Shown: positions 21,903 through 30,453 of the stretch, in pieces
Position numbering within the stretch: the first letter of the stretch is position 1
Layout of the letters: each line of letters starts with the position of its first letter
DNA from: Paenibacillus sp. AN1007
GTDB taxonomy: Bacteria > Bacillota > Bacilli > Paenibacillales > Paenibacillaceae
Assembly (NCBI RefSeq): GCF_040702995.1
Contig: NZ_CP159992.1
Location: 4,303,501 to 4,367,500, forward strand
Length of the DNA: 64,000 nt
Direction of reading: 5' to 3'
Position numbers and translations under genes: made by a program
Notes under the pieces: model-generated
Database searches by the model: none
Seen by the model: only the letters and a program-made list of their open reading frames with translations
What the model was told of the DNA's origin: nothing

Positions 21903-22139
21903 TTATCTGGTGTACTCGTCTATATCCTCCATCGCAGAATCATGCCTTCTTTTGTGCAGCTCTTCATGCTGGTATACATCGTTTTTCAACTTGGCCAGAA
22001 ATCCCCACCCGGTAAAAAACATCAAAAGCACGGCAATCAACGCATAAGCAAACGTAAATAGGTTCATATAAAAATTCACAAATATTGCAGCCAGCATCAG
22101 TCCCACAATCCATAATACCCACTTTGTACTTTTTCTCAT
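21903..22139 (-). CDS. Small two-helix membrane protein
   Basis: 78-residue protein with two hydrophobic segments (about residues 7-25 and 28-47) and a charged cytoplasmic tail ending HDSAMEDIDEYTR. AGGAGGGACAGCG precedes ATG 22139. I do not recognise the family. It is the last backbone-like gene before the AT-rich island. Confidence 0.65.
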   Translation of the reverse strand: MRKSTKWVLWIVGLMLAAIFVNFYMNLFTFAYALIAVLLMFFTGWGFLAKLKNDVYQHEELHKRRHDSAMEDIDEYTR

Positions 22140-22471
22140 CGCTGTCCCTCCTCACTAAGTTGTAATCATTTACTCTAACATACTCTTGTATCCTCGTACA
22201 TACGCTCAAAAAGTGACACAGTTTCGCTGAAAAAATCCTCTAAATATACTTGTTGACGAGCACATAGTGCCCATCAAGCAATTAATATAAAATTGCCCGA
22301 ATATAGACAAAAGTTAGATTTTGGATATATCCATGTTCATATGATTAAGAAACTTATTGGAGCGGTTACTACTATTGAGGAAAATAAGAAATTAAATAAG
22401 CCAGTTTTAAAGAGAAGCTCCCAATGAATTCAGGTTGGCTGATAATCAGAACTTTGAGAATAACATAAATT

Positions 22472-22499
22472 AAGGAGCTTCGTAATCCAAGCTCCTTTT
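22472..22499 (-). terminator. Terminator of the nuclease operon
   Basis: AAAAGGAGCTT / AAGCTCCTT hairpin with an eight-base loop, 49 bp after the nuclease gene stop. It may work on both strands. The remaining 22140-22470 interval shows no convincing gene. Confidence 0.7.
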
Positions 22500-22547
22500 A
22501 CAATTTTTCATATACTAAACCAAGGCAGGAAAACTATATTCTTAATA

Positions 22548-23837
22548 CTATAAATAAAGAATCTCCTCTGGCCTTCGGGATAATATTTTTTCGTCATACA
22601 GACTATCTATTTCCCGCAAAAAATCTGTTACGTTAGAATATCCTTTTTCGTAAACCATTTCTAACACTTCTTCAGCTACCCTTAAACCATGAACCAATAC
22701 AATCGGGTAACCGTCGTCAATAATTTCCCTTTGAACTGCTTCAGAAAAGTAACTTGTTGTCACATATACTCCTACCCAACCTCTTTTTAATCTTGCTACA
22801 GTACGAGCAATGTGATTCCCCCCCGTAGGGGTATCAAATTTCTCACATTTTGCCTGGCCTAATACAACGAGTTTTGTTTTCGAAAAACCGGAACCTATGT
22901 CAAGCCTTCCTACAAAATCAGAACCTCCATCTGAGGAGGAAGGAGTAATCCACCCTTCCATGTACGATCCTTTTTCGGAGCCTAATATTTTTTGTGCAAC
23001 TTGAGAGGCAAGCCCTTCAAAACGTGCTTTTCTACTACCATCATAAAAATTATATATTTCATTTATTGCCTTCTCTTCGCGAGAACCTCTACCTGGTTTC
23101 TGATTTTGAGGTTTTGTTGTTAGTATTTTTGAAACTCTCCTTCTATATTTTTCAACCGAAGGCAAACCCTCTCTAATCCATTTTTCCCACGATTCTGGTG
23201 CGTACCGTAGAGTATCCTTTATCGACATGGCGGGATCTCTACGTGCATTTATCCAGTCCCACATAAATTCTTCTCCCTCTGTTTTCATACTAAAAACAAC
23301 AAAATCAAAAACATAGTTCGTGAAATATTCATCTTTTTTTATATCATATTGTGTTATTCTTTCTGCACGTTCAACCATTCCGAAACCCTGAAACATCACA
23401 TTTCCCTTTACCTTACCCTTATATGAAACTCTCTTGAAAAATACAATAGGAGTTGCATGTAATCTGATTGATTTATCCAGTGAATTCTGTACATCAAAAG
23501 CTGCTAGTAAACTTTTATTCCCTCTTGATACTTCAGGATTTTGTCCAGTTTTTTTATTATCTCCATAGTATCTTATATGCCCATTATCCGGATCAAAAAA
23601 GTCTTGCCACGGAGTGTCTGTGGAACCAATTTTATGAGGGCTACTCGATATTAATATTACTGGTGTTCTATTTCCATCGATGGCGTTAACATCCGCAGGT
23701 TTATTAATTCCTGATTCTAAAAGGAGTTTTTTGGCACCTGGTTTATGTGTTAAGTGAAAAAAGCTTGGAAGACCGTCAATAATATCCTTAGATTGGTCGT
23801 ATGGTCTTCTGTATGCGAGAACTTCGTTGATTTTCAT
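22548..23837 (-). CDS. AspBHI/Mrr-like modification-dependent restriction endonuclease
   Basis: About 429-residue predicted nuclease. The N-terminal 230 residues (HLTHKPGAKKLLL, PWQDFFDPDNGHIRYYGDNK, then FFKRVSYKGKVKGNVMFQGFG) resemble the DNA-recognition domain of AspBHI-type enzymes, which read 5-methylcytosine contexts. The C-terminal part is an Mrr-type PD-(D/E)xK domain: GLASQVAQKILG, then GGSDFVGRLDIG with the catalytic Asp at about residue 311 of the longer frame, LVVLGQAKCEK with the Q-x-K pair about 20 residues on, and HIARTVARLKRGWVGVYVTT. ATG 23837 fits AAAGGA at 10 nt better than ATG 23849. It is the last gene of the Z1 operon but sits behind an intrinsic terminator. No methyltransferase is present. 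Family assignment is from motif recognition, not a search. Confidence 0.75.
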   Translation of the reverse strand: MKINEVLAYRRPYDQSKDIIDGLPSFFHLTHKPGAKKLLLESGINKPADVNAIDGNRTPVILISSSPHKIGSTDTPWQDFFDPDNGHIRYYGDNKKTGQNPEVSRGNKSLLAAFDVQNSLDKSIRLHATPIVFFKRVSYKGKVKGNVMFQGFGMVERAERITQYDIKKDEYFTNYVFDFVVFSMKTEGEEFMWDWINARRDPAMSIKDTLRYAPESWEKWIREGLPSVEKYRRRVSKILTTKPQNQKPGRGSREEKAINEIYNFYDGSRKARFEGLASQVAQKILGSEKGSYMEGWITPSSSDGGSDFVGRLDIGSGFSKTKLVVLGQAKCEKFDTPTGGNHIARTVARLKRGWVGVYVTTSYFSEAVQREIIDDGYPIVLVHGLRVAEEVLEMVYEKGYSNVTDFLREIDSLYDEKILSRRPEEILYL

Positions 23838-23863
23838 ATAAATACTCATCCTTTAATAATTAA

Positions 23864-23901
23864 TAAAAAAATACACCCTTAAAAACTTTTTAAGGATGTG
23901 T
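23864..23901 (-). terminator. Intercistronic terminator between the Z1 gene and the nuclease gene
   Basis: Minus-strand hairpin ACACATCCTTAAAAAG / TTTTTAAGGGTGT followed directly by ATTTTTTT. It sits in the 73-bp gap between the Z1 stop (23911) and the nuclease ATG (23837), with the nuclease ribosome site just after the T run. Confidence 0.7.
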
Positions 23902-23910
23902 TATTTTACA

Positions 23911-25938
23911 TTAAATATTGTTTAGGTTAAATAGAATGTTATTCTCATCTTCTGGAAACCTAAATAAAGGAATCCAAAAATCCACTCCATCCCAGCCTTC
24001 TTTAACACCTCTATTTCTTACAAAAATAGCCAATGGTTTTTTGCTATCTACTTCACTCACTATCCGCTGCATGCTTGGGGAGAGTACAGATCCAATTTCT
24101 TTACTCCCTCTACTTTTAGAAAGGCCGATGTTGGTATCAATATTGTATAGCATGTTGATTGAATTAGATCGATTGGCCTTGTACCAGCTTAAATACTCTA
24201 CAATTACTTTAGTACGCCATCCACCGGTAACTAATAATGGTATTTTATTAAAAATATCAATTACAGTATCAACTTCAATTTCTACTGGTTCAAAAGGTTC
24301 TGTAATATCCAATACTTTCTCATTTACATAACTAGTCACCTCTTCAATTACTCCACTATGAAATTCCGGGACCTTAGGAAACCTTAACTGTCCAGGCTTA
24401 TAAGCCCCTACCGAATTTGGAATAACATTTGGTCTTGAGGGACTAAGATTATCTCTGTTTAAATATAATGTGCTTTCTATATTATGATTTTTGATTATAT
24501 CTCGCTGGACTGCATCGTGCTCGCATATTTCTTCAAATAAGTCCGCGATATCCTCAGGAATAAACACTCTAGTTACAGTTAAATCTTTGGAACGGTAACC
24601 ACACATTCTGGCATGCTGCATTAACGTATCGACCTGTGGTCTTGCAACAACCCTTCCATAATAAGTAACTAGCAGACGAGGAATTGTTAAACCACGTCCA
24701 AGCTTGTTTCCACCAATAATGAAATTGTACTTTTTATTTAATTTGATGTTACTTTGAGACTCAGGTGCTGCGTTAAGTACTATAACATCATGACTATTTA
24801 TATTATCACTTAAAACCTTTAACACGTCTGGAAATACGGGTATCTTTGGGTGCGTATCTTCTAAATCAGCATAAGCTGCTAAAAGATAATGCATGATAAA
24901 ATCCCTTTTCTCTGATTCCTCCGGTCTCTTTAATGCTTTATATAAATCCGCAACAAATTTTTTTGTTAGTTTCTTTATCCTGGTGTGGATCAGTTGATAT
25001 GGACTAATATGGCAGAGAAAAGTGAATTTTTGTTCACGTCTCGGTTCTGTATTTTCAAGCAGCCGGACGGATGCTCCAATTACAAAGTTAGATAAGGCAC
25101 TCATTAACCCATCAGGAATACTAGTTATATCTTCATCATCTGATTCCATTCTAGCAAGCTCTTTTATTTCCTCTTTTTCTACATTCCTAATATGTTCCTT
25201 TGCATTTTCCTGAAAAAAGGTATGAATTCCTGTATAGCCTCTGCCTGCGTCAACTATTTCTATAAATTCTGGATAGAACCCTGTATCCTCTTTGTTTTGA
25301 AGAATTATTGCTTGAGGGGTTGCTGTTACTTGTAAATAAAGCTGCGTTGAAACCATATCGCGTAGATCTAAAAGTTGCTGATTTATCGCACTTGGATCTT
25401 CACCCTCAATGCGCTGATTAGTATTTAGACCTATCGCGTCTGCCTCATCGTCAGCAATTAGAGCTGATATATCGGTTAAATCTTGATTTGATAAAAATGT
25501 AATTAACTTTTCAAGATCTGCAGTGTCCTTTTTACAAATTAATACAATTCCATCAGTTTCCAACACAGTTTTTAAGTATTCTGGGTCCTCTTCGCTAATT
25601 TCATCCATTTTCCTTACTAACATGCCTGATAGTGCTGAATCCGATCTATCAAAAGTTTGGTCTTGTAGAGAGTTGTTTCTATCAGTTAATACGACAAATA
25701 GCTTATAGCCATTATCAGCGGCTAAAGCAACTGTCATATTAATTATATTAGTTTTTCCACTTTGGATTAAACCATAAAGCAATCCTAAAATCTTTTCACT
25801 GCTATTTACTTCAGGGATTCTTTCCAATATATTTACAGATGTTTGTAACACATTTGATGCTGCTGCCTCCCCAATCTCGGCACTTAACTCTGAAAGAAAA
25901 TTAGATACACGCTCACCATCTTGAATTATCTCTCTCAA
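23911..25938 (-). CDS. Z1-domain superfamily II helicase-like ATPase
   Basis: 675-residue predicted DNA-dependent ATPase of the Z1 type. Motifs in order are Walker A GLIQSGKT (residues 56-63), motif Ia-like VVLTDRNNSLQDQ (82-94), Walker B IADDEAD (161-167), motif III VTATPQA (204-210), GGNKLGRGLT (409-418) and the arginine-finger motif QVDTLMQHARMCGYR (435-449). Z1 helicases are known from restriction-like gene neighbourhoods with MORC ATPases (Iyer, Abhiman and Aravind 2008). Here no MORC or methyltransferase gene is present. The TTG start at 25938 follows AGGAGG with 8 nt spacing. It lies 22 bp after the small first gene, and codon use is AT-rich like its two operon partners. Confidence 0.82.
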   Translation of the reverse strand: MREIIQDGERVSNFLSELSAEIGEAAASNVLQTSVNILERIPEVNSSEKILGLLYGLIQSGKTNIINMTVALAADNGYKLFVVLTDRNNSLQDQTFDRSDSALSGMLVRKMDEISEEDPEYLKTVLETDGIVLICKKDTADLEKLITFLSNQDLTDISALIADDEADAIGLNTNQRIEGEDPSAINQQLLDLRDMVSTQLYLQVTATPQAIILQNKEDTGFYPEFIEIVDAGRGYTGIHTFFQENAKEHIRNVEKEEIKELARMESDDEDITSIPDGLMSALSNFVIGASVRLLENTEPRREQKFTFLCHISPYQLIHTRIKKLTKKFVADLYKALKRPEESEKRDFIMHYLLAAYADLEDTHPKIPVFPDVLKVLSDNINSHDVIVLNAAPESQSNIKLNKKYNFIIGGNKLGRGLTIPRLLVTYYGRVVARPQVDTLMQHARMCGYRSKDLTVTRVFIPEDIADLFEEICEHDAVQRDIIKNHNIESTLYLNRDNLSPSRPNVIPNSVGAYKPGQLRFPKVPEFHSGVIEEVTSYVNEKVLDITEPFEPVEIEVDTVIDIFNKIPLLVTGGWRTKVIVEYLSWYKANRSNSINMLYNIDTNIGLSKSRGSKEIGSVLSPSMQRIVSEVDSKKPLAIFVRNRGVKEGWDGVDFWIPLFRFPEDENNILFNLNNI

Positions 25939-25960
25939 TCCTATTTCCTCCTCTTATAAA

Positions 25961-26188
25961 TCAGTCATCGAACTTAAAAATAAAATCTTGCTCCTCAGCT
26001 TCATCTCTGAATCTTTTTTTTAGGTTTTGAATTTCTTGTTCTAAGGTAGCTGCAATTTGTTTTGCCTGCTCAACTGTATATTCGTAGTTGTTTTTGTTAG
26101 CCAAGTTACCGATAAGCCTTATTTTTTTCACACATTCTGTTACTCGTTTCTCAGCTAATCTTTTAAAGTTGTCAGCTTTTGAACTCAT
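25961..26188 (-). CDS. Small charged helical protein, first gene of the Z1 operon
   Basis: 75-residue, highly charged, predicted all-helical protein with the motif KKIRLIGNLANKNNYEYT followed by a coiled-coil-like stretch (QIAATLEQEIQNLKKRF). It has no signal peptide and no cysteine beyond one near the N-terminus. An AGAGG site precedes ATG 26188. It is directly behind the operon promoter and 22 bp before the Z1 gene. It may be an adaptor or specificity-modulating subunit, but that is inferred only from position and size. Confidence 0.7.
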   Translation of the reverse strand: MSSKADNFKRLAEKRVTECVKKIRLIGNLANKNNYEYTVEQAKQIAATLEQEIQNLKKRFRDEAEEQDFIFKFDD

Positions 26189-26220
26189 TGCTTAAACCTC
26201 TTTTCTAATATCATATCATA

Positions 26221-26250
26221 ATAATACATTCACCATCATTGATCGTCAAT
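26221..26250 (-). promoter_or_regulatory. Sigma-A promoter of the Z1-nuclease operon, with palindrome over -35
   Basis: Minus strand TTGACG (26249-26244), 17-bp spacer, TATTAT (26226-26221). A perfect palindrome ATTGA-TCG-TCAAT (26238-26250) overlaps the -35 hexamer and is a candidate operator. Confidence 0.6.
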
Positions 26251-26802
26251 AATATTCAAATATATTTAATACATTTTAAAAATAAAAACTTCATTCTCAT
26301 TTATTATATAAAATAATTGTATCTTCTTGAGTAACTACAGCCGAATGAAAGTTACATGGCAAATAACTCAAAAGTTTTTTTGTAGTTACAGTGATACTGA
26401 CAATCTATTTCTACCGCTGATAACATCCTGTCCTTATCATCCCCTCATTGCTTCATCACAGAAATATGAGAAGCATGTCAACTGATAGATAATTTAATTC
26501 TCAGTAAACGCATCTAGAATGTTACTAAGGTCAAATAATAATGTCTAAGTATCCTAAGATAAATTGCTAACCGATGAGCTTATATAAAAACAAGAGAACT
26601 GAGATTCCATAGTCCACAAGTTAGCAATCTCTTTTCCTTAGAAGCTATTGGACTGCTTGAAAATTACCAACGATTGAACAGTAAAGAACAGTAAAAAAAC
26701 AAAGACAAAATTGAGAAAGTATTAGCTGAAGTGCACCCCTTAGAATAGACATTGGAAAAAACCCTGGGTTTAACCGATGAAATTCTAGGGGGTGTATTTT
26801 TT

Positions 26803-27120
26803 ATGGCGATTAAGGGACAAAAGTTTAAAACGTATTCGGAGACGTTGAAAAATGAGGCTATTCGTCTGCACACGGTTGAGGGCTGGACTTATCGAAAGAT
26901 TAATGAGCATCTGGGAATTCATGACCCAGGACGAATGAAGCGCTGGATGAGAAAATATCGGGAACAAGGTGAGTTTGGACTGATGGATCAGCGAGGGCGA
27001 CGTAAAGAATACTTGGACCAAGACCGTTATGTCCAAAAACTGAAGCGGGAGAATGCGTTGCTAAAAAAGTGCTTGGTCATCTGGAAGGAGGAAGCAAACA
27101 AGAAAGATTTCAGATCATAG
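26803..27120 (+). CDS. IS3-family transposase OrfA
   Basis: About 105-residue helix-turn-helix protein that binds the IS ends. Visible features are the HTH (AIRLHTVEGWTYRKINEHLG) and a C-terminal leucine-zipper-like segment (YVQKLKRENALLKKC). ATG 26803 follows AGGGGGTG. The A-AAA-AAG heptamer at 27063-27069 is positioned for -1 frameshifting into orfB, giving the OrfAB transposase. No internal stop is seen. Confidence 0.88.
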   Translation: MAIKGQKFKTYSETLKNEAIRLHTVEGWTYRKINEHLGIHDPGRMKRWMRKYREQGEFGLMDQRGRRKEYLDQDRYVQKLKRENALLKKCLVIWKEEANKKDFRS

Positions 27121-27953
27121 AAAAAGTAGCGGCATACGGGGATATCCAGAAACTTTGTGATGTATGTGGCGTGTCACGGAGTGGATTTTATGCCTACATA
27201 AAACGTAAACGATTTGACCGCGATACAAAGGCGATGAACCAAGTACTTCAAACCTATCAACGATATGAAGGGAAATATGGTTATCGACAACTCCAGTTAT
27301 TCCTTTGGCAAGATCAGAGGATTTGGATGAACCACAAAAAGGTGCTCCGCCTGATGCAAATGCTCGGTATTCAATCCAGGATTCGTCGTAAACGACGCTC
27401 CAGTGGCCCGTATGCACCTGCGCAGCGAGTAGCAGAGAACTGCCTGAAGCGAGACTTCAGTGCAGAAAAACCGAATCAGAAATGGGTAACGGACATTACC
27501 CAGTATCGTGTGGGAGAGCGCTGGATATATCTTTCAGCTATAAAGGATCTGTTTAATAACGAAATTATGGCCTACGAAATAGGCGAACGCAACGATAATG
27601 AACTGGTGCTCCGCACATTCAGTAAAGCGTTTGCGAAGCAAAAAGACGTGACCGGACTCGTCGTTCACAGCGACCAGGGTTTCCAGTACACGTCTCACGC
27701 TTACCACGACATGCTGCCAAAGGTTGGCGCCCGAATCAGCATGTCTCGCCGAGGAAATTGTTATGACAATGCCTCGATGGAGAGTTTCTTCTCGCATCTC
27801 AAAACGGAAGGACTCTATCCTTATCATATCCGAACGCTTAACGAAGCACAAAGCAAAATCGAAAAATATATCCGTTTTTATAATCGAAAACGGCCACAAC
27901 GGAAACTGAAAAAACTGACACCGGTAGAGTACCGACGCCAGTTTACAGCCTAG
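27069..27953 (+). CDS. IS3-family transposase OrfB (DDE integrase domain)
   Basis: Catalytic part of the transposase, about 294 residues, probably made as an OrfAB fusion by slippage at 27063-27069 rather than from its own GTG. It has an HTH_21-like region (VSRSGFYAYIKRKR), then an rve domain with the DDE triad: D in KWVTDITQY, D in VVHSDQGFQY and E in CYDNASMESFFSHLKTE. It ends YNRKRPQRKLKKLTPVEYR, the usual family end. Full length, so the element may still be active. Confidence 0.92.
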   Translation: MLGHLEGGSKQERFQIIEKVAAYGDIQKLCDVCGVSRSGFYAYIKRKRFDRDTKAMNQVLQTYQRYEGKYGYRQLQLFLWQDQRIWMNHKKVLRLMQMLGIQSRIRRKRRSSGPYAPAQRVAENCLKRDFSAEKPNQKWVTDITQYRVGERWIYLSAIKDLFNNEIMAYEIGERNDNELVLRTFSKAFAKQKDVTGLVVHSDQGFQYTSHAYHDMLPKVGARISMSRRGNCYDNASMESFFSHLKTEGLYPYHIRTLNEAQSKIEKYIRFYNRKRPQRKLKKLTPVEYRRQFTA

Positions 27954-28065
27954 GGTCTTTTTATAATGTCTACTAAATGGGGTCTTGACCACAATGCCAA
28001 CAGTGTCTTTTTACCGATGCTTTCGGACTCGCTTAATATTACCACAGTTCCCCTCTTTGTTCAGA

Positions 28066-28494
28066 TCAATCTGAGACAACGAACCCGTCAAAGTTTTCAG
28101 GACCTACACGAAAAGAAGGTGCCCGACCAGCACTTACAAATGCACTGTACGTCAATTGTGATGAGAGGGGTGGGTTGAAATCGTTTGCTGAGAATGTGAT
28201 AACTTGTGGTGACCGAGGGTTAAAGTCATACGTAGCTGTCGCAGAATAAACAATTGGGTCAGTTGCTAACGTACCTCGTACAACAGTAATGGTGAACATA
28301 CCCGCGATAATACCGTTAAATGGGATTTCTATAGTAACCGTTCCTTTTAACAGAACTCTGAGATTATCACCTGCCCCATCTGTTAACAAACCGATTTGAC
28401 CAAATAACTGAGGGACAGGATTTGAAAATCCAATAGAGATTGAGTTTGCCAAGCTTGCATTCTGTGATGACCTTGCATCAAGGAGTCTCGTCAT
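28066..28494 (-). CDS. Beta-rich hypothetical protein
   Basis: About 142-residue protein starting MTRLLDARSSQNASL, rich in Ser, Val, Thr and Phe with alternating hydrophobic pattern (TVTIEIPFNGIIAG, MFTITVVRGTLA, VITFSANDF). No signal peptide or cysteine is visible. The start ATG 28494 has an AGGAGAG site 13 nt upstream, so spacing is loose. The sequence reminds me of beta-sandwich C-terminal domains on spore-surface or phage structural proteins, but I cannot assign it. The stop lies just outside the IS end. Confidence 0.5.
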   Translation of the reverse strand: MTRLLDARSSQNASLANSISIGFSNPVPQLFGQIGLLTDGAGDNLRVLLKGTVTIEIPFNGIIAGMFTITVVRGTLATDPIVYSATATYDFNPRSPQVITFSANDFNPPLSSQLTYSAFVSAGRAPSFRVGPENFDGFVVSD

Positions 28495-28577
28495 TTTAAA
28501 TATAATCTCTCCTATCGTTTGGGAAAGGATAATATATTCGCAGTCTATTGGACTGCTTGGACATTCATCTACACAGC

Positions 28578-28613
28578 AAAAAAAGCCCCGTCCAGATATA
28601 TAACTGGCGGGGC
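28578..28613 (-). terminator. Terminator upstream of the beta-rich gene
   Basis: Minus-strand GCCCCGCCAGT / ACTGGACGGGGC-type hairpin followed by TTTTTTT. It would end transcription entering from higher coordinates, where only remnants remain. Confidence 0.7.
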
Positions 28614-28724
28614 CTTTCAAATAGGGATGGGAGAGTTAACAGAGCTATGTAATAGCTCCGTTTTGTTGTGTGCTGACCATTTATTGGATGAATCAATTTT
28701 AAGTTTATCCTGAGAAATGCTAAT

Positions 28725-28870
28725 TATACTTTTGCTTCAATCTTCTTCAACCGCTCGTCCATGTCAACCACATTTCCGTTAACTCCTTAGATTAGCTTCA
28801 GGAAATTTTTCCTGAGCCGGTTCATCACGGCTACAGACTCTTCACGGGTGATCAAACTTCTGCTTAATTG
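28725..28870 (-). pseudogene. Decayed phage-like gene fragments
   Basis: Two short minus-strand peptides stand out without full ORFs. One reads LITREESVAVMNRLRKNF and then stops, resembling the C-terminus of phage or bacterial amidases. After TAA and a GGAG, a second reads NVVDMDERLKKIEAKV and stops, resembling a small phage lysis-cassette protein. The upstream parts are missing. Identification is by eye only. Confidence 0.3.
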
Positions 28871-28908
28871 CTTCTATGCCCTTTTATCTTCTTCCCACAC
28901 CTTTGGAT

Positions 28909-29159
28909 ATGACTTGGGGTGAGTGTATTGGACTTCTTTCGGAAGAGTTCAGAGTTCCCAATAAATTGGCTGCCAATCGTGCAGAACACATTTCCTCCAG
29001 GCTTCACGAAGAATATCATACCACCGTGATGATGTTGAAATGATGAAAGGCAAAATTCAAGTTGCTGTCTCTTTATTCCGTTCTTCTCAATCAAAGAGCC
29101 CTTCCAAAGAAACACTCCGCCTTCTTCAACAACTGAAAAAACAGATTAATGCATCTTAA
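28909..29159 (+). other. Possible small gene (two overlapping frames) before the integrase
   Basis: Frame 28909-29043 encodes 44 residues (starting MTWGECIGLLSEEFRV) and stops at TGA. ATG 29040 overlaps that stop and continues for 39 residues (KGKIQVAVSLFRSSQSK, ending LLQQLKKQINAS) to 29159. Both look protein-like and together could be one roughly 83-residue protein split by a frameshift. The integrase ribosome site follows at once. No family recognised. Confidence 0.3.
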
Positions 29160-29173
29160 GGAGCTGATAGTAT

Positions 29174-30407
29174 ATGGCATCTTACACGAAAATTAAAAAA
29201 TAATAAGCAAGGCTATAAGTGGATTTGTACATTGGAAGGACCTCCTGACCCCGTTACGGGTAAGAGAAAGCAGATACCACGGCGAGGTGACACGCAAAAG
29301 GAAGCTTTAGCACGTGCTCAAAAGGTTCTTGATGATCTCACAAACCACGGGATAGACTCTAAGAAAAATAAAAATCTACCTTTTAAAAAAGTAGCTGCTG
29401 ATTGGCTAAAAACATATTCGAAAGGTGAAGTAAAAGAAAGTACGGTTAGGGTCAGAAGTAAAGAAATCAAACTTCTTGAGAAATATTTACTTGAGATTAA
29501 TATTGATAAAATTTCTCACAAACAGCATCAAAACATTATTAACGATTTGGATGATCAAGGATATGCAAGAACGACCATCGAAGGTGTTCATGTTACTGCC
29601 AACATGATTATGAAGTATGCAATTAAACATAAAATGAGATTGGATAATCCTTGCACTGGTACTATTATTCCAGTGAAAAAATTAACTGTAGAGGAGATTG
29701 AAAATACATCATTAGAGGACGGTTATCTGGAGAAAGACGAAATAAACGAATTCTTACACGCAGTGTTTCTCCATGGTATGGCAATGGATTTAGAACGCTT
29801 CTATTTACTTGCTTTTTCAGGGATGAGATCGGGGGAGCTTTGCGCCCTGAAGTGGACAGACATTAATTTTGAAACAAATGAAATAAGAGTTACCAAGACT
29901 TTGTATAACGAAAATAATAACATGAAGATGTACAAACTTACTCCCCCAAAAACTGAAGGATCAATCCGTACATTTCAGGTAGACCAGGTTGTAATGGACT
30001 TACTAAAAAATCATTACGAGAAGCAAAAACAAGCCATTATTGAAATAAAAAAAATGCTGCCTGATTATCATAACGGAAATTTTGTATTTTGTCGGACTAA
30101 CGGCTACCCCTTTATACAAAAAAACGTACTTAACAGAATGAACAGAATACTAAAACACACATCAATAAAAAAAGAGGCTACCCCACACATCTTCAGACAT
30201 ACACATATCAGTATGCTATCAGAAGCAGGAGTTGATTTGAAGACGATCATGAAGCGAGTTGGGCACGATGACCCAGAAACTACGTTAAAGATCTATACTC
30301 ATGTAACTGAAAAAATGAAGAAAGATGCCAACGATAAAATCAGATCTCATTTTGCAGACATTTTAGATTTCAGATTTGAAAAACAAGCAACTTTGCAGGA
30401 AATGTGA
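29174..30407 (+). CDS. Phage-type tyrosine recombinase/integrase, 5' frameshift
   Basis: Site-specific recombinase of the Tn916/phage Int type. It has an AP2-like N-terminal arm (DPVTGKRKQIPRRG), a SAM-like core-binding domain (about residues 50-150) and a catalytic domain with Arg in FSGMRSGELCALKW, HIFRHTH, GHDDPETTLK and the Tyr nucleophile in KIYTHV. ATG 29174 follows AAGGAG and starts MASYTKIK, the usual family N-terminus, but six A residues at 29195-29200 put it into TAA. Five A would keep the frame. The frame downstream (from at least 29232) is intact to 30407. It faces groEL, so it probably drives the island's mobility, if still functional. Confidence 0.85.
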
Positions 30408-30426
30408 TTTTTTCGTGATTTAATAA

Positions 30427-30453
30427 CAAAAGGCTCCCTCTCGGGAGCCTTTA
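30427..30453 (-). terminator. Bidirectional terminator between the integrase and groEL
   Basis: AAAAGGCTCCC / GGGAGCCTTTT with a TCTC loop. Serves groEL (minus strand) and the integrase (plus strand). Confidence 0.9.

Follow-up and report, generated by a model that had tools for sequence, protein, structure and literature searches.

Organization of the locus

The window, a 64,000-nt stretch of Paenibacillus sp. AN1007 (contig NZ_CP159992.1), carries three adjoining minus-strand open reading frames (ORFs), which encode a 75-aa protein, a motor of the CglI-H type and a nuclease of the MspJI family. The reading we favor, with fair though not high confidence, is that they lie in one mobile island, in which a self-sufficient MspJI-type nuclease stands beside a CglI-H-type motor with an unnamed partner. 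Positions of these and other features are in Table 1.

Table 1. Features of the island and its surroundings (window positions).
Feature	Position	Strand	Details
MspJI-family modification-dependent endonuclease, 433 aa	22548-23849	-	SRA-like 5-methylcytosine (5mC) domain and Mrr-type PD-(D/E)xK domain
12-pair stem	23865-23899	-	-14.5 kcal/mol, z -3.8
CglI-H-type motor, 675 aa	23911-25938	-	TTG start
75-aa charged helical protein	25961-26188	-	family heading PDC-M33-like operons; tblastn, family alignment
Best sigma-70-like promoter match, ahead of the 75-aa gene	26221-26249	-	TTGACG-17-TATTAT, 10/12 matches
IS3-like element	26752-27953	+	helix-turn-helix transposase ORF, PF01527 E 7.6e-6; rve integrase-core ORF, PF00665 E 5.3e-25
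Tyrosine integrase, 391 aa	29232-30407	+	ORF with TTG start; PF00589 E 2.1e-27
Genomic island, ~8.2 kb, approximate borders	22235-30427	.	short conserved ORF (21903-22139) to groEL terminator

The nuclease

Judged by its sequence, the 433-aa protein is an ordinary-looking predicted enzyme of the MspJI family that cuts methylated DNA. The likelier start is the ATG at 23837, which gives 429 aa. A methylcytosine-reading N-terminal domain joined to an Mrr PD-(D/E)xK domain, as originally predicted, was recovered: the SRA-like domain (PF18062; fold match) has the 5mC pocket residues, aligned to those given in PMC4499157, and the C-terminal Mrr-type nuclease (PF04471, E 6.6e-5) has a D...QxK motif formed by D311, Q332 and K334. 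Domain order and full-length homology are those of MspJI (PDB 4f0p, 4f0q, 4r28; type IIM/IV), with 39% identity over 429 aligned residues and both pocket and catalytic residues in common. The earlier label "AspBHI-like" holds at the level of the enzyme family, as AspBHI (4oc8) and LpnPI (4rzl) belong to it and likewise have an SRA-like domain, but both are far less similar to the nuclease (E 6e-16 and 2.4e-4, respectively) than is MspJI (E 4.6e-92).

At locus L030 (6888-9825), genes for an m5C methyltransferase and Vsr are followed directly by an MspJI-like gene. Because these genes directly adjoin, the specificities of the MspJI-like gene and the methyltransferase must be compatible there.

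The motor and its neighbors

The ORFs of the trio are separated by gaps of 22 and 61 nt. As had been noted, all three are AT-rich, with GC of 0.33 (75 aa), 0.36 (675 aa) and 0.37 (433 aa) and third-position GC of 0.27-0.30, versus 0.50 for lacZ and 0.49 for groEL in the flanks. From layout and shared composition the original prediction took the trio to be a unit; however, the nuclease and motor gene pair was not found together in relatives, and the two are thus probably neighbors and not one new machine. An ATP-dependent unit is improbable. Overall, what had been observed in the original prediction was borne out in part, and its interpretation is supported in part.

The motor resembles the H (N) subunit of the CglI and NgoAVII systems, from which the island differs in having neither a PLD R protein nor an m5C methyltransferase; as a whole, the structure model was weak (pLDDT 64.5). 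Window positions 14001-34500 gave no PLD_R match, i.e., no PLD-family R nuclease beside the motor as in CglI-type systems, and no m5C_MT or MORC match, in agreement with the reported absence of a methyltransferase and a MORC ATPase near the trio. No m5C methyltransferase match was found in the island itself; the host genes for such enzymes are located elsewhere, and a complete CglI-type set is present elsewhere in the same genome (L033). MZA was considered and rejected, as the NCBIfam MzaC score was 84.6 bits, far below the cut-off of 1500, and no MORC ATPase match lies nearby.

The 75-aa protein

tblastn found relatives of the 75-aa protein in 11 plasmid records (best 55.7%), and an ORF of 615-802 aa directly follows the homologue in 7 of 9 fetched loci. 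These plasmid loci (L038-L046) are PDC-M33-like and other operons in which the relative is encoded by an unannotated first gene and the 615-802 aa ORF is the second. In L039 the homologue precedes PDC-M33A of the PADLOC candidate system PDC-M33, and the same arrangement is seen in L038 and L045, where a DUF6339 gene is annotated. A PADLOC scan of the three trio proteins, with the island's other short ORFs left unscanned, detected no M33A, M33B or M33C.

The island and its insertion site

The sequences flanking the island (left of 22234 and right of 30428) are just 2 nt apart in genome G444 and almost joined, ~16 nt apart, in G066; therefore the window carries a chromosomal island of ~8.2 kb, which includes the tyrosine integrase and the IS3-like element. 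At this site, downstream of groEL, G406 has ~16.7 kb of other, unrelated DNA (L136:1010-17728), and thus the site may be an insertion hotspot. Phage-like genes lie to the right of the site in G438, and in G423 the contig runs out. By eye, the frame upstream of the listed TTG start of the tyrosine integrase looks broken (29160-29240), and the integrase may therefore be inactive.

Predicted promoter and stem loop

Promoter-like sites in the region number 22, versus 19.0 ± 4.4 expected, and thus position alone favors the promoter match ahead of the 75-aa gene. The stem was equalled by 2 of 200 shuffles, and 60 first-order Markov resamplings gave no comparable site; in a looser scan, the region has 3 terminator-like sites versus 3.2 expected.
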